Made by a program: the position numbers and the translations under genes. The notes below the pieces were generated by a model. The model ran no database searches and was not told where the DNA came from. It saw only the letters and a list, made by a program, of their open reading frames with translations. 64,000 nt of DNA, taken from assembly GCF_013410945.1 (NCBI RefSeq), contig NZ_JACCCH010000001.1, positions 2,294,001 to 2,358,000 of the forward strand. Direction: 5' to 3'. This document shows, piece after piece, positions 6,095 through 53,412 of this stretch. The stretch's first letter is position 1, and each line of letters starts with the position of its first letter. This stretch comes from Leifsonia sp. AK011 (GTDB lineage Bacteria > Actinomycetota > Actinomycetes > Actinomycetales > Microbacteriaceae).

Positions 6095-7093
6095 CTACGG
6101 GGCGATTGCACGCAGGGTGGCGAGCTTCGACGCGAGGTCCGGTCCCTGCGGCGCGACTATCACCTCGTCGGCGCCCGTGCTCGCGGCGAGGTCGGCGATG
6201 CGCTGCGTCGCGTGCGTGACATCCCCGATCGCCTGGTGGGAGTTGCGCTCCCTGACCCACTCGAGTTCCTGGGCCGACCACGGATACGCCTCGGCCTCGG
6301 CGAGACTCGGGATGCGACCGGGACGCTCCCCCTTGCGCATCCGCACGAACAGCAGGCCGTTCGGCAGAGCCAGACGCTCCGCCTCTTCGGCGTTCTCGGC
6401 AACGAGAGTGGAGACCGCGACCATCGAGTGCGGCTCGGTGAGAACAACGGAGGGTGTGAAGCTCTCCCGGTAGATGTCGAAGGCGACACGCGTGTTCGGA
6501 CCTCCCGCGAAGTGATGGGCGAAGGCGAACGGGAGGCCCATCATCCCCGCCAGGCGCGCGCTGAAGTCACTCGAACCGAGAAGCCACATCTCGGGCGAGT
6601 CACCGAGCCCCGGCACGGCCACGATGCGCGAGCCGATGCCGTTCTCGAGCGGCGGGATCGTGCCGAACCATGCAAGGAGCTCGATCACCTGGTTGGGGAA
6701 GTCGTCGACCGATTCCTGAGCCGCGCGGCGGAGAACAGCCGCCGTCAGACCGTCCGTGCCAGGCGCACGTCCGAGCCCGAGGTCGATGCGGTCGCCGTGG
6801 AGCGCGACGAGCGTGCCGAACTGCTCGGCGATCACGAGGGACGAGTGGTTCGGCAGCATGACTCCACCGGAGCCGACGCGGATCGTGGACGTCGCGGCGG
6901 CGATCGCCCCGATGAGCACCGCAGGGGCGGATGACGCGACGGCGGGCATCCCGTGGTGCTCCGCGACCCAGATCCTGCGGTAGCCGAGCTTCTCCGCCTC
7001 CTGCGCGGTGGCGATCGTGTCGCGCAGCGCTTCGGCGTGCGACATCCCCTCGTAGACGGAGGCGAGGTCGAGGACGGAAAGGGGGATGCTCAT
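6095..7093 (-). CDS. LLM-class oxidoreductase, luciferase-family group 1 (MsnO8-like)
   Basis: The 332-aa protein has the block structure of the group-1 luciferase-like flavin monooxygenases: [18 protein letters not shown] at the N-terminus, then [27 protein letters not shown] and [12 protein letters not shown]. These build a TIM barrel that binds reduced flavin. The substrate is unknown. The ATG at 7093 is preferred over an upstream start because it directly precedes the conserved IPLSVLDLA strand. It follows the BenE-like transporter on the same strand with about 50 bp between them. Confidence 0.85.
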
Positions 7094-7141
7094 GCCGGGG
7101 TCAACGCCCGTGGCATCCACCCCATTCCGTCACCCGGCACG

Positions 7142-8389
7142 CTAGGCCTTCGGGGTGGTCTCCGGCTCGGCGGGCGAGCCAGCCTCGGCGGACTCCCCCG
7201 GCGCCCCGGAGGGTGCCGTCTCGGAGATCGGCTCGGGCTTCGGGCGGCGTTGCCAACCGAGCCACAGCATGACGATGCCGCCGGCCAGGAGCCCCCAGAA
7301 AGCGGAGCCGATTCCGGCGATGACGATGCCGGAGGCGACGACGAGGAACGTGATGATCGCCGTGATCCGGTGCTCGGGAGCCTCGAGGGCACCTACGACG
7401 CTCGAGATGAGCGCTCCGAGCACGGCCAGGCCTGCGACAGCCGTGATGAGGATGGAGGGGGCCGCATTCACCAGGGCCACCGCGGCTCCCGCACCGAGAC
7501 CGAGCGGAATGTAGAGCAGTCCGTTGGTGAGCGTCGCAGTCCACCGCTTCGAGCGGTCGGGGTGCGACTCGTCGCCCGCCATGATCGCTGCTGTGATGGC
7601 ACCCAGGTTGATGGCGTGTCCGCCGAAGAACGCCGCTCCCGCCGAACCGAGACCGGTACCCACGAGGGCGAAGCGCGGCGGCACCGTGTAGTCGTTGCTC
7701 TTCATGACGGTGAAGCCCGGAATGTTCTGGCCAGCCATGGTGACGATGAAGAGTGGCAGCCCGAGGCTGATGACGGTGTTGATGTTGAAGGTCGGTGCGA
7801 CGAAGGTCAGTTGGGGTGCGATGGATGCCTCGGTGATCCAGTCGCTGCCGGCCGAGATGAACACGCACACGATCGCGACGACCATGGCCGCGGGCACCGC
7901 CCAACGGGGCGCAAGCCGGTAAAGCACGAGCCACGTGAGAACGATCGGGCCGGCGAGGAGGGGAAGCTCGGCCACCGCCTGGAACGGCGCCAGGCAGATG
8001 GGCAGGAGCACGCCGGCGAGCATCGCGCTCGCGAGCGGCTTGGGGATGCTCGTGATCGCACGCCCGAGCCAGGGCCAGAGCCCGCACAGCACGATGAGAA
8101 TCGCGCTGACGATGAAGGCACCGACGGCGTCGGAGAAGGTGATGCCCTGGCCCGCCGCGGCGAGCAGCACTGCTGCGCCGGGCGTCGACCACGCGATCGC
8201 GAGCGGGATCCTGAGGACGAGGGCGCCGATCGTACTGACGACCGCTGTGGCCAGACAGATGGCGAGGAGGCCGGAACCGGCCTGCTCAGGGGTGGCGCCT
8301 ACGGCGATGAAGGCGGCAATGACAAGAGCGAAGGACGACGCAAAGCCGGCAATGGCTGCGACAAAACCTGCGGAAATCGACTGGAACAT
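7142..8389 (-). CDS. benE: BenE family (benzoate/H+ symporter-like) transporter
   Basis: This 415-aa protein has about twelve hydrophobic segments and BenE-family sequence features, including STPGAAVLLAAAG early on and KSNDYTVPPRF, GGHAINLGAITAA and HPDRSKRW in the second half. Family members carry benzoate or related aromatic acids with protons, but no benzoate catabolism genes lie here, so the substrate is open. The C-terminal 35 residues are an extra Pro/Glu/Ala-rich tail. A leaderless TAGGCT box ends 6 nt before the ATG. Confidence 0.88.
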   Translation of the reverse strand: MFQSISAGFVAAIAGFASSFALVIAAFIAVGATPEQAGSGLLAICLATAVVSTIGALVLRIPLAIAWSTPGAAVLLAAAGQGITFSDAVGAFIVSAILIVLCGLWPWLGRAITSIPKPLASAMLAGVLLPICLAPFQAVAELPLLAGPIVLTWLVLYRLAPRWAVPAAMVVAIVCVFISAGSDWITEASIAPQLTFVAPTFNINTVISLGLPLFIVTMAGQNIPGFTVMKSNDYTVPPRFALVGTGLGSAGAAFFGGHAINLGAITAAIMAGDESHPDRSKRWTATLTNGLLYIPLGLGAGAAVALVNAAPSILITAVAGLAVLGALISSVVGALEAPEHRITAIITFLVVASGIVIAGIGSAFWGLLAGGIVMLWLGWQRRPKPEPISETAPSGAPGESAEAGSPAEPETTPKA

Positions 8390-8395
8390 TCCGCC

Positions 8396-8401
8396 AGCCT
8401 A
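8396..8401 (-). promoter_or_regulatory. Leaderless -10 box (TAGGCT) of benE
   Basis: The box ends 6 nt before the ATG at 8389. It sits inside the symmetric CCTAGG. Confidence 0.5.
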
Positions 8402-8433
8402 GGGTCGTTGCCTTTGGCAACAAAACCGACGCG

Positions 8434-49031: not shown

Positions 49032-49492
49032 GTCGCCGTTCGCACCACGACGTCGGCGAGGTCGCGCGGCGACTCCCTGGCAATGAAACGTTCCTCCTGG
49101 GCCGCCCAGCGCTCCCAGTGCGGTGCGAAGGTATCGCCGTCGCGCGCGAGCGCGCGCTCACGCCGGGTCGCGTCATCCGCTTCGAGCCAGAGCGCCGTGC
49201 TCGCCCGGGAACGGCTCGCACGGCTCAGCGCCCCGACGCCCTCGATGATGATCGGGGCGTCCGGCCGGAGATAGTGCATCGCGCCCGGTCGATCGCTCGT
49301 CCAGTCCCACGACCGCCACGACAAGGTGTCGAGGATGCCCGGCACCGCGACGCTCGCGGCATCGAGGCCGTCCCATCCGGGGTAGATGTCGTCGAGGCGC
49401 ACGAGTTGGGCACCGTTGATCCTGCTGGCGAGGAGGGTTGCCAGGTCGGACTTGCCGGAGCCGGAGCGACCGTCGATGAGGGTGACATCCAT
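49028..49492 (-). CDS. P-loop kinase-like protein in the thiamine-transport operon
   Basis: The 154-aa protein has Walker A GRSGSGKS at about residues 8-15, a YPGWDGLD segment after DDI, an IIIEGVGAL Walker-B-like strand and an Arg-rich LID (ADDATRRERALARDG), as in uridine kinase-like nucleoside and small-molecule kinases. It is the last gene of the ykoE-D-C operon, with a one-base stop/start overlap with ykoC (TGATG). A GTG one codon upstream (49495) is also possible. Substrate unknown; a thiamine precursor is suggested only by context. Confidence 0.82.
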   Translation of the reverse strand: MDVTLIDGRSGSGKSDLATLLASRINGAQLVRLDDIYPGWDGLDAASVAVPGILDTLSWRSWDWTSDRPGAMHYLRPDAPIIIEGVGALSRASRSRASTALWLEADDATRRERALARDGDTFAPHWERWAAQEERFIARESPRDLADVVVRTAT

Positions 49493-50277
49493 CACTGGCC
49501 GCCGATGAAGTTCCAGTGGCCCGTCACGACAGACACGGTAACGGATGCCACCGCAATACCGACCGCGAACAGCACGAGCACCGCATCCGCTGCGCCCACC
49601 CGCGACTCCCGAGCCCAGCTCCGCTCCCCGGGCGCGCCGAACGCCCGGGCCTCCATTGCCGTCGCGAGTTTGCTGCCCCGTCGGATCGCCAGCACGAGCA
49701 GTGCGAAGGCCTGACTGAAGAACCGCCGGACACGACCACCGTCGGCGACACCGCGGGCCCGGCGGGACAGCTCCAGGCTCCGCCAGTCGTCAGCGAAAAG
49801 GCTCACGAGGCGCAACCCAGCGAGTGCGCCCAGCACGAAGCGGGCAGGCAGCCGGAGGCGTTGCGCGAATCCGTCGGCGAGATCCGTCGGGTCGACGGTC
49901 GCGAAGAGCACCACGGCCGGCAGCGCGATCGCCAGGACGCGAAGGATGGTGGCGATCGCAAGCTCGATCGAGCCATCACTGATGTGGATGAGCAGGAACT
50001 GGAAGTAGGTCTCACCTGAGGGACGCCCGTAGAGGAGGATCGTGACACCGCCGAGTACCGCAGCGATCCAGACCGCCGCGGTGCGGCGGAAGAACTGGGC
50101 GAACGTGAGGCCCGCGAACGGGAGGAGGATCGCCTCGGCCCCCAGGGCGACCGTCGCCGAGACCCAGTCGATGGAGAGCACGAGCGCGATGCTGATGATC
50201 GCGCTCGCGGCAAGCTTCGCGACCGGGTTGATGCGGTAGACGGCCTGAGTGCCACGCACGGGAGTGAGCATGGTCAT
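49492..50277 (-). CDS. ykoC: ECF transporter transmembrane component (EcfT, YkoC)
   Basis: The 261-aa protein has about five helices and the two EcfT coupling motifs that dock the ATPases: ELSRRARGV and ATAMEARAFG. It links the S component to the ATPases and transfers the energy of ATP hydrolysis. It overlaps ykoD by 4 bp and its stop overlaps the kinase start. Confidence 0.9.
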   Translation of the reverse strand: MTMLTPVRGTQAVYRINPVAKLAASAIISIALVLSIDWVSATVALGAEAILLPFAGLTFAQFFRRTAAVWIAAVLGGVTILLYGRPSGETYFQFLLIHISDGSIELAIATILRVLAIALPAVVLFATVDPTDLADGFAQRLRLPARFVLGALAGLRLVSLFADDWRSLELSRRARGVADGGRVRRFFSQAFALLVLAIRRGSKLATAMEARAFGAPGERSWARESRVGAADAVLVLFAVGIAVASVTVSVVTGHWNFIGGQ

Positions 50278-51734
50278 GCGGCACCCGGCATCCGGAACTC
50301 CGAGTCGGCGAGGGCCTCGACGAGCTCGGTGTCATGCGTGATGGTGACGACTGCGCTGCCGGCGTCCGCGAGCTCAGCGAGAAGCGCGACGAGCTCCTCC
50401 CACGTGCGACTGTCCTGGCCGAAGGTGGGCTCGTCGAGGATGAGCACGCGCGGCCGGGTGGCCAGTGCCGTCGCAACCGACAGCCGACGTTTCTCGCCGC
50501 CCGAAAGCGTGAACGGATTGGCACCGAGCAGGCGATCGAGCCGAAGCCGGGACGCGAGTTCTGCGCAGACCTCCTCGAGTTCCGCCTCGCTCCGGCCGAG
50601 CACGCGAGGCCCGACGAGGAGTTCGTCCTTCACCGTTCGCGCGAGGAACTGGTGTTCCGGGTCCTGGAAGACGGTGCCGACGCGCGTGAGGAGATCGCGG
50701 GATTTCCAGCGGAAGGGGTTCGTTTCGGTGCCAGTGGCGAGAGGGGTGGCATCCACGGTGCCCGCGGCCGCCGGGATGAGCCCTCCGAGGGTGAGGCCGA
50801 GTGTCGACTTTCCCGCGCCGTTGGGTCCCGTGATGGCGAGCACGCGCCCTGAACTCACGGAGAGGTCGATGCTGCTGGCGACCACGCGCTGGGGCGCGCG
50901 GGCGACGGAGAGGTCGCGGGCCTCGATGACTGCGGTGGTGGCGCCGAGGGTGCGCGTCGGAGCGGCGGGCGGATGCCCCGGCACCCAGATCCCGGATGCC
51001 GCGAGCTCGGCACCGCGCTCACCGAGCACGGCATCCGGGCTCCCGTCGGCCAGCACGCTGCCCCTCGCTCCCAGCACGATGATCCGATCCACCAGATCGC
51101 GCCAGACCGAGACCCTGTGCTCCACGACGATGAGGGTCGACCCGGTGCTGGCGGCGACCCGAGCCACCGAGTCGCGTACCTGTTCGACGCCGTCCGGATC
51201 GAGATTCGCGGTCGGCTCATCGAAGAGCAGCAGCCCCGGCCGCATCGCGAGCACCCCCGCGAGAGCGAGGCGCTGCTTCTGTCCACCGGAGAGTTCGCTC
51301 GTGGGGTGGTCGAGTGGCAGGTCGAGCCCGACGGCCTCCAGCGACCCCGCAACTCGTCGCCACGTCTCATCCCGCGGGACCCCGAGGTTCTCGCAACCGA
51401 ACGCGACATCATCGCCCACGCGCGCGAGCATGACCTGCGAATCGGGATCCTGCAGCACGAGGCCCACACGGCCGCGGGCGGCCCGGGGGTCGGCCCCGCC
51501 GACGAGCAGCTCGCCGGCCGACTCCCCCTCATCGTCGCCCCCGAGAACGCCCGCCAGGGCGTGGAGCAGGGTCGACTTGCCGGAGCCCGAGGCGCCGAGA
51601 AGCAGCACCCGCTCCCCTGGCTCCACCGTGAAGGTCACGTCGGAGAGGGCCCAGGCGAGCCTCGTGGCGTGTCGCCACCCCCATCCCCGCGCGACGACGG
51701 AGACGGGAGCGGCGGCACCAACGAGGGAGGTCAC
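50274..51734 (-). CDS. ykoD: ECF transporter fused ATPase (EcfA1-EcfA2, YkoD)
   Basis: The 486-aa protein has two complete ABC ATPase domains: GASGSGKST with LSGGQKQRLALA and LFDEPTANLD, then GPNGAGKST with LSGGEKRRLSVA and ILDEPTFGQD. Fusion into one chain is typical for YkoD. GTG 51734 overlaps the ykoE stop by 4 bp; upstream in-frame sequence belongs to the ykoE region. Confidence 0.92.
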   Translation of the reverse strand: MTSLVGAAAPVSVVARGWGWRHATRLAWALSDVTFTVEPGERVLLLGASGSGKSTLLHALAGVLGGDDEGESAGELLVGGADPRAARGRVGLVLQDPDSQVMLARVGDDVAFGCENLGVPRDETWRRVAGSLEAVGLDLPLDHPTSELSGGQKQRLALAGVLAMRPGLLLFDEPTANLDPDGVEQVRDSVARVAASTGSTLIVVEHRVSVWRDLVDRIIVLGARGSVLADGSPDAVLGERGAELAASGIWVPGHPPAAPTRTLGATTAVIEARDLSVARAPQRVVASSIDLSVSSGRVLAITGPNGAGKSTLGLTLGGLIPAAAGTVDATPLATGTETNPFRWKSRDLLTRVGTVFQDPEHQFLARTVKDELLVGPRVLGRSEAELEEVCAELASRLRLDRLLGANPFTLSGGEKRRLSVATALATRPRVLILDEPTFGQDSRTWEELVALLAELADAGSAVVTITHDTELVEALADSEFRMPGAA

Positions 51735-52327
51735 ACGCGAACGGTGTTCTCGCGCCCCGACGCGAAACGGTCCAGCGCGCCCGTGCGCGCGAGTCCGCGA
51801 GCGAGGAGCCACGAGCCCAGCCCGGCGATCACCGCGCCGGAGAGCACGGCAGAGATCGCGTAGGTGACACCGAAAGCCGTGTCGGCACCGGGGTACCAGA
51901 GCACGAGATCGTTGAGGGCCATCGCGAGACCGGAGAGGGCACCCGCGAGGAGCGCGACGAACCAGCTCCAGTTGACGTAGCGGAAGGCGAGGAACACCAA
52001 CTCGGCGCCGAGACCCTGCACGAGGCCCGCCTCGAGCGTGAGGAACGCCCACTGCGCACCGAGCAGAGCGGAAACGGTTGCCGCGATGATCTCGACGTAG
52101 ATGGCGGCACCCGGTTTGCGGATGATCAGTCCACCGAGCACGCCGGCGAAGAGCCACACACCGTAGAGCAGGGCCTGCATGCCCGGGAGCGCGGCCTCGA
52201 GCGGCGCGGTTGCGGGCTGGTAGAACTGGTTCCAGACCCAGAAGACGAGACCGGCTGCGACGCCGATCGCGCTCGCGACGACGATATCGACGACCCGCCA
52301 GGTGAAACGGTTGGATGATGCGGACAT
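51731..52327 (-). CDS. ykoE: ECF S component YkoE, thiamine-precursor (HMP) transporter
   Basis: The 198-aa membrane protein has six helices and YkoE-type blocks VDIVVASAIGVAAGLVFWVW, RKPGAAIYVEIIAAT and GLVQGLGAELVFLAFRY. YkoE is the substrate-binding part for hydroxymethylpyrimidine in Bacillus. The TPP riboswitch 30 bp upstream supports a thiamine role. AAAGG is the ribosome site for ATG 52327. Confidence 0.93.
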   Translation of the reverse strand: MSASSNRFTWRVVDIVVASAIGVAAGLVFWVWNQFYQPATAPLEAALPGMQALLYGVWLFAGVLGGLIIRKPGAAIYVEIIAATVSALLGAQWAFLTLEAGLVQGLGAELVFLAFRYVNWSWFVALLAGALSGLAMALNDLVLWYPGADTAFGVTYAISAVLSGAVIAGLGSWLLARGLARTGALDRFASGRENTVRV

Positions 52328-52335
52328 AGTGATGT

Positions 52336-52356
52336 GCCTTTCGGATTCGAAACGGC
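52336..52356 (-). promoter_or_regulatory. Candidate ribosome-site-sequestering hairpin before ykoE
   Basis: GCC-TTTCG-GATT-CGAAA-C-GGC can fold with one bulge and would hide the AAAGG ribosome site of ykoE in the RNA, consistent with translational control by the upstream riboswitch. Confidence 0.45.
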
Positions 52357-52461
52357 ACGGGTTTCAAGAGGGCCTCCCTGCGCTGGCATGATCCAGATCA
52401 GGTTCGACGGTCGAAGCTTGGAGAAGCTTCCTCTCAGCCCGGCTCACCGGACTCCCGTGTA
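52356..52461 (-). promoter_or_regulatory. TPP (THI-box) riboswitch
   Basis: The minus-strand RNA contains CTGAGAGG (52430-52437) and the long THI-box block ending GCCAGCGCAGGGA (52375-52403), with a stable GAAGCTT/AAGCTTC hairpin between them (52413-52430). An outer CACGGG/CCCGTG stem may close the structure (52454-52459 with 52356-52361). It controls the ykoE-ykoD-ykoC operon in response to thiamine pyrophosphate. Confidence 0.95.
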
Positions 52462-52469
52462 CGCCGACA

Positions 52470-52479
52470 AGCATAGGCT
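52470..52479. promoter_or_regulatory. Overlapping divergent -10 boxes (AGCATAGGCT)
   Basis: On the + strand TAGGCT (52474-52479) ends 6 nt before the LLM oxidoreductase ATG 52486. On the - strand TATGCT (52470-52475) ends about 8 nt before the riboswitch's 5' stem. The boxes overlap by 2 bp, so polymerase can start in only one direction at a time. Confidence 0.55.
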
Positions 52480-52485
52480 CGAATC

Positions 52486-53412
52486 ATGGACTTCCGCATC
52501 TTCACCGAACCGCAGTACGGCGCCACCTACGACGACCAGCTCGGACTCGCCCTCGCCGCCGAACGGCTCGGGTTCAACGCCTACTTCCGGTCCGATCACT
52601 ACTCGACGATGAGTTCGCAGTCGAACGGGCTACCCGGGCCGACCGACTCGTGGGTGACGCTGGCCGGGCTGGCGCGCGAGACCAGCACGATCCGGTTGGG
52701 GACGCTCGTGTCATCCGCCACCTTCCGCCTGCCGGGGATTCTCGCCATCCAGGTCGCGCAGGTTGACGCGATGTCGGGTGGACGTATCGACTTTGGGCTC
52801 GGGACCGGATGGTTCGAGGCCGAGCACCGGCAGTACGGGATCCCCTTCCCGGAGAAGCGCTTCGGGCCGTTCGAGGAGCAGCTCGAGATCATCACCGGGC
52901 TCTGGAACACGCCCATCGGGGAGCGATTCAGCTACGACGGCAGCCACTACCAGCTCGTCGACTCCCCCGCGCTGCCGAAGCCGGCACAGGCCCACGTGCC
53001 CATCATCATCGGTGGCGCCGGTGCCTCGAAGACGCCGGCGCTCGCTGCTCGCTTCGCGGACGAGTTCAACTCGTGGCGAGCCGAGCTGGAGCTGACTGCC
53101 GAACGTATCGCACGCGTGCGGGCGGCATGCGAGGCGATCGGCCGTGACCCGGGCGAACTCGTGTTCTCGATCGCCGGCACTACAGCCGTGGGTGGCTCTG
53201 CCGCGGACCTCACCCGCCGGGCGGATGCCACGGGCCAGCCTCTCGAGGCGCTGCGCTCCTCCGGCTTCGCGGGCACCGCCTCCGAGGTTGTCGATGTGCT
53301 GGGCGCACTGCAGGAGCTCGGCGTCTCGCGCATCTACTTCCAGGTGCTGGACTTCGCGGACCACGACCAGCTCGACTACCTCGCCCGCGAGATCGCGCCC
53401 CAGCTCGGGTGA
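52486..53412 (+). CDS. LLM-class (F420-dependent type) oxidoreductase
   Basis: The 308-aa protein begins DFRIFTEPQYGATYDDQLGLA and has AERLGFNAYFRSDHY, STIRLGTLVSSATFRLPG, GRIDFGLGTGWFEAEH and VPIIIGGAGASKTPALAARFAD, the motifs of the TIGR03560-like LLM family that use reduced flavin or F420. Substrate unknown. It may be connected to thiamine because it shares its promoter region with the TPP riboswitch, but this is inference. Confidence 0.87.
   Translation: MDFRIFTEPQYGATYDDQLGLALAAERLGFNAYFRSDHYSTMSSQSNGLPGPTDSWVTLAGLARETSTIRLGTLVSSATFRLPGILAIQVAQVDAMSGGRIDFGLGTGWFEAEHRQYGIPFPEKRFGPFEEQLEIITGLWNTPIGERFSYDGSHYQLVDSPALPKPAQAHVPIIIGGAGASKTPALAARFADEFNSWRAELELTAERIARVRAACEAIGRDPGELVFSIAGTTAVGGSAADLTRRADATGQPLEALRSSGFAGTASEVVDVLGALQELGVSRIYFQVLDFADHDQLDYLAREIAPQLG

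Follow-up and report, generated by a model that had tools for sequence, protein, structure and literature searches.

We found that the 10-bp core AGCATAGGCT, which occurs at positions 52470-52479 and is present in a single copy within the 64-kb window (the whole stretch of DNA that was analysed, 64,000 nucleotides), very probably constitutes a bidirectional promoter, in which two opposed -10 boxes share a TA and which would be used either way by the housekeeping polymerase. Judging from a family-wide comparison of upstream regions, both -10 boxes are strongly and separately supported, and we regard them as independent because each is retained at loci lacking the other gene and in linkers whose boxes stand apart. 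The features surrounding the core are as follows.

52486..53412, plus strand: LLM-class F420-dependent oxidoreductase, 308 aa, with a leaderless-type start (TIGR03560, PF00296)
52474..52479, plus strand: -10 box TAGGCT of the putatively leaderless LLM gene, predicted transcription start 52486
52470..52475, minus strand: -10 box TATGCT of the riboswitch-ykoEDC transcript, read 52475->52470, predicted transcription start 52463
52358..52459, minus strand: TPP riboswitch aptamer (RF00059, 56.6 bits against a cut-off of 54.3)
52328..52357, minus strand: likely expression platform, a predicted hairpin across the ykoE Shine-Dalgarno region
51731..52327, minus strand: ykoE, membrane component (PF09819, 3.1e-39)
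50274..51734, minus strand: ykoD-like ATPase with two ABC domains (PF00005 in two stretches; coordinates with a provisional start)
49492..50277, minus strand: ykoC-like transmembrane T component, CbiQ-type permease (PF02361, 5e-20)

The 10-bp core and the genes on either side

On the plus strand, TAGGCT is followed by the 6-nt spacer CGAATC and then by the ATG at 52486, while on the minus strand TATGCT lies 10 nt upstream of CACGGGAGTCC and of the TPP aptamer at 52459. Both boxes had been assigned by the initial annotation to the LLM gene and to the riboswitch-ykoEDC transcript, respectively, and both were recovered at the positions listed above, with the self-complementary TA at 52474-52475 being common to the two. 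When the first T of TAGGCT is counted as -12, the predicted +1 falls on the A of the ATG (52486); from TATGCT, the minus-strand +1 is predicted at 52463, 4 nt ahead of the aptamer, and the two predicted starts are separated by 23 bp, as derived from the box positions. The aptamer and the LLM ATG are 26 nt apart, with AGCATAGGCT inside this interval, in agreement with the distance of about 25 bp that had been proposed between the riboswitch 5' end and the ATG. A consensus -10/-35 scan of the core stretch returned no full sigma-70 promoter and no -35 match on either side, which is expected for actinobacterial promoters that lack a -35 element.

The plus-strand protein scores 270 bits against TIGR03560 (curated cut-off 231.4), its orthologs are conserved at the N terminus from residue 1, and the F420 gene cofD is present in the source genome (3.01 Mb). 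In Actinobacteria, TANNNT approximately 12 bp upstream of the start codon marks leaderless genes (PMC3160421), and TANNNT without a -35 element is the main promoter motif of M. tuberculosis (PMC3898074). The LLM gene resembles these leaderless genes, with the first T of TAGGCT located 12 nt upstream of its ATG and with the directly upstream TAGGCTCGAATC being without a Shine-Dalgarno sequence, whereas it differs from them in that its -10 box is also part of an opposed promoter. The initial description of the divergent gene as leaderless-type is consistent with this arrangement and with the recurrence of the box among relatives, reported below, and the TIGR03560 match assigns the product to the F420-type enzymes. 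A second LLM-like protein of 341 aa is encoded elsewhere in the window (6095-7120, minus strand).

On the minus strand, thiamine-related genes lie 3' of the RF00059 aptamer, namely ykoE (PF09819), the ATPase with its double PF00005 match and the PF02361 gene, bearing out the TPP riboswitch and the ykoEDC-type operon that had been annotated there. The order is that of the TPP riboswitch-ykoEDC operon, in which RF00059 precedes the PF09819, ABC ATPase and PF02361 genes; the difference is that the promoter here is fused with that of the divergent LLM gene. Named matches to the YkoE of the window come from Herbiconiux and Microbacterium, pointing to an actinobacterium of Microbacteriaceae type. 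Since a scan of the riboswitch leader found no terminator-like site and a hairpin is predicted ahead of the ykoE start, riboswitch control of ykoE is probably translational.

Conservation of the boxes and of their overlap

The comparison covered the upstream regions of 99 LLM orthologs from the same genus and family, 33 of which have a divergent TPP riboswitch, representing 10 genera and 28 distinct linkers. We observe a minus-strand box TANNNT at 9-12 nt from the aptamer in all 28 linkers (shuffle mean 1.5, maximum 6) and a plus-strand box [T/C]ANNNT exactly 6 nt upstream of the start codon in 26 of the 28 (shuffle mean 0.75, maximum 5), figures that are counts rather than probabilities, as related linkers are phylogenetically non-independent. 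One further linker, the 27th, has its plus box at 7 nt, and among the 28 linkers L080 displays no recognisable leaderless box. Each box is also found without the other gene. All 19 TPP loci that have no adjoining LLM gene carry TANNNT 8-12 nt upstream of the aptamer; they originate from Herbiconiux, Microbacterium, one actinobacterial MAG and the genus of the window itself. YANNNT-N6-RTG stands ahead of 36 of the 66 LLM genes that do not adjoin a TPP riboswitch (shuffle mean 0.7). Many of the remaining LLM genes away from a TPP riboswitch look operonic, with a purine-rich stretch ahead of the start.

The shared-TA geometry is present in 10 of the 28 linkers, spread over 5 genera, and missing from the other 18, and the exact 10-bp core is found in only 5 of the 33 divergent loci. 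Conservation of the core in relatives, which had been put forward as informative, was obtained for the two boxes but not for the exact sequence. In the sister clade from the window's own genus, the linker reads AGTCTA, 8 bp, TAGGCT, with the boxes apart and each at its own distance. The box-to-box distance, taken between the first bases of the minus box (in plus-strand reading) and of the plus box, is 4 in shared-TA linkers and 11-14, 22, 28, 34 or 47 in non-overlapping ones. Across the divergent loci L013-L158, the spacing is either 4 or at least 11, with no value of 5-10, and forms groups near 4, 11-14 and 22, which may result from common descent or from helical phasing. The idea that fusion arose only once was rejected, as at least three changes are forced on well-supported branches of the LLM tree, with gain and loss not being separable. 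From these comparisons, the overlap appears to be optional and the two genes to be neighbours rather than firmly locked.

We also considered how often such patterns arise by chance. In the window, ANNNTANNNTN6RTG occurs twice against 1.26 expected, and the bare pattern is unremarkable. In the source genome, TANNNTN6ATG has 362 sites, compared to 121 for the reversed control pattern (about 3x), an excess suggesting that leaderless genes are numerous. The extended form ANNNTANNNTN6ATG accounts for 39 of these sites genome-wide (10.8%), and 67 carry a T in place of the opposed-box A; with the shared-TA core not enriched at leaderless starts (A against T), symmetry as a genome-wide signal was rejected. 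The evidence beyond chance is the conservation of both boxes at fixed distances, in 28 of 28 and 26 of 28 linkers, and not the bare pattern. The window contains one more core with this layout, ACCCTAGGCTGGCGGAATG (8387-8405, minus strand), lying ahead of a BenE-type transporter ORF (8389->7142, minus strand, PF03594), which is located downstream of a clpX-like ORF. Additionally, ANNNTANNNT is rarer than expected in the window (1-64000), with 6 occurrences against 21 in dinucleotide shuffles, a scarcity that perhaps reflects avoidance of stray -10 boxes.

Proposed bidirectional initiation and its known counterparts

In the proposed mechanism, polymerase carrying the main sigma factor would bind the core in either orientation. 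In the plus orientation it would produce the leaderless LLM oxidoreductase mRNA, starting at or beside the ATG, and in the minus orientation the TPP-riboswitch leader of ykoEDC, starting approximately 4 nt upstream of the aptamer. Binding in one orientation would exclude the other at any instant; the earlier statement that polymerase cannot occupy both sites is reasonable on geometric grounds and agrees with work on bidirectional promoters (PMC12825309). Thiamine is expected to act only on the riboswitch RNA, after initiation, so that expression of the LLM gene is probably independent of thiamine, with little influence from the adjacent operon.

Alternatively, only one direction could be a real promoter, with the opposite box reflecting fortuitous symmetry and the promoter of the other gene lying elsewhere. 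The TA is self-complementary, so that part of an opposing box comes free, and a -35 element is absent on either side; yet each box is kept at its own distance even in linkers where the boxes are apart and in loci where the other gene is missing, and we consider a one-directional promoter very unlikely.

The putative bidirectional promoter has known counterparts in prokaryotes, E. coli among them (Warman et al. 2021, as summarised in PMC12825309), which it resembles in its opposed -10 boxes sharing bases, in the predicted 23-bp separation and in the mutually exclusive polymerase binding expected of it. In E. coli, the starts of bidirectional promoters are most often 18 bp apart, with separations of 10 and 23 bp also being common (PMC12825309). 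Relative to those promoters, as far as they are described there, the present site has actinobacterial TANNNT boxes without a -35 element, its starts are predicted, and one of its products is leaderless whereas the other begins with a riboswitch. A literature search of partial coverage found no direct precedent for a riboswitch at a bidirectional promoter, which is weak evidence. The site is probably a further example of the known 23-bp class of bidirectional promoter, in which a leaderless gene is joined to a riboswitch leader.

Relationship between the riboswitch operon and the LLM gene

The initial annotation had further described the two genes as locked together. We find it quite unlikely that selection keeps the overlap as a regulatory lock, in which polymerase competition would make LLM expression inverse to that of the riboswitch operon. 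The polymerase would be unable to occupy both sites and the shared-TA geometry does recur in 5 genera, but 18 of the 28 linkers, including those of close relatives, are without overlap, and across the genome leaderless starts show no excess of the shared core. When one side of an E. coli bidirectional promoter is strongly activated, the other is repressed, whereas at basal activity competition is negligible; the five promoters tested competed only under such activation (PMC12825309). The riboswitch, moreover, leaves initiation unaltered, and because it acts after that step, thiamine would not change polymerase occupancy. The footprint of RNA polymerase extends well beyond 40 bp, and the 10-bp overlap adds little to coupling, because exclusion would also hold for most relatives with separate boxes. 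With overlap in only 10 of the 28 linkers, a riboswitch acting post-initiation and basal competition absent in E. coli, the claim of a lock was not upheld, and the proposed coupling of the two genes is possible but unsupported.

It is likewise highly improbable that the LLM oxidoreductase works together with thiamine uptake under TPP control and that strong transcription of the uptake operon lowers the LLM level through the shared promoter. The bidirectional promoter and its relatives form a natural series, in which two independently anchored promoters are fused in some species and lie one to several helical turns apart in others, offering a convenient system for asking whether the fusion of such promoters alters expression or is simply tolerated. 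Two unrelated types of TPP-riboswitch transporter, YkoE and ThiB-like, are found opposite the LLM gene, which keeps its divergent position in both cases, and an unexplained link is indicated between thiamine transport and an oxidoreductase of the F420 type. In L028, L062/L063 and L155, the riboswitch divergent to the LLM gene precedes a ThiB-like thiamine-binding protein, which replaces ykoE; TIGR01254 scores above its cut-off in L028, L063 and L155, and L062, which belongs to the same genus as L063, is without ykoE.
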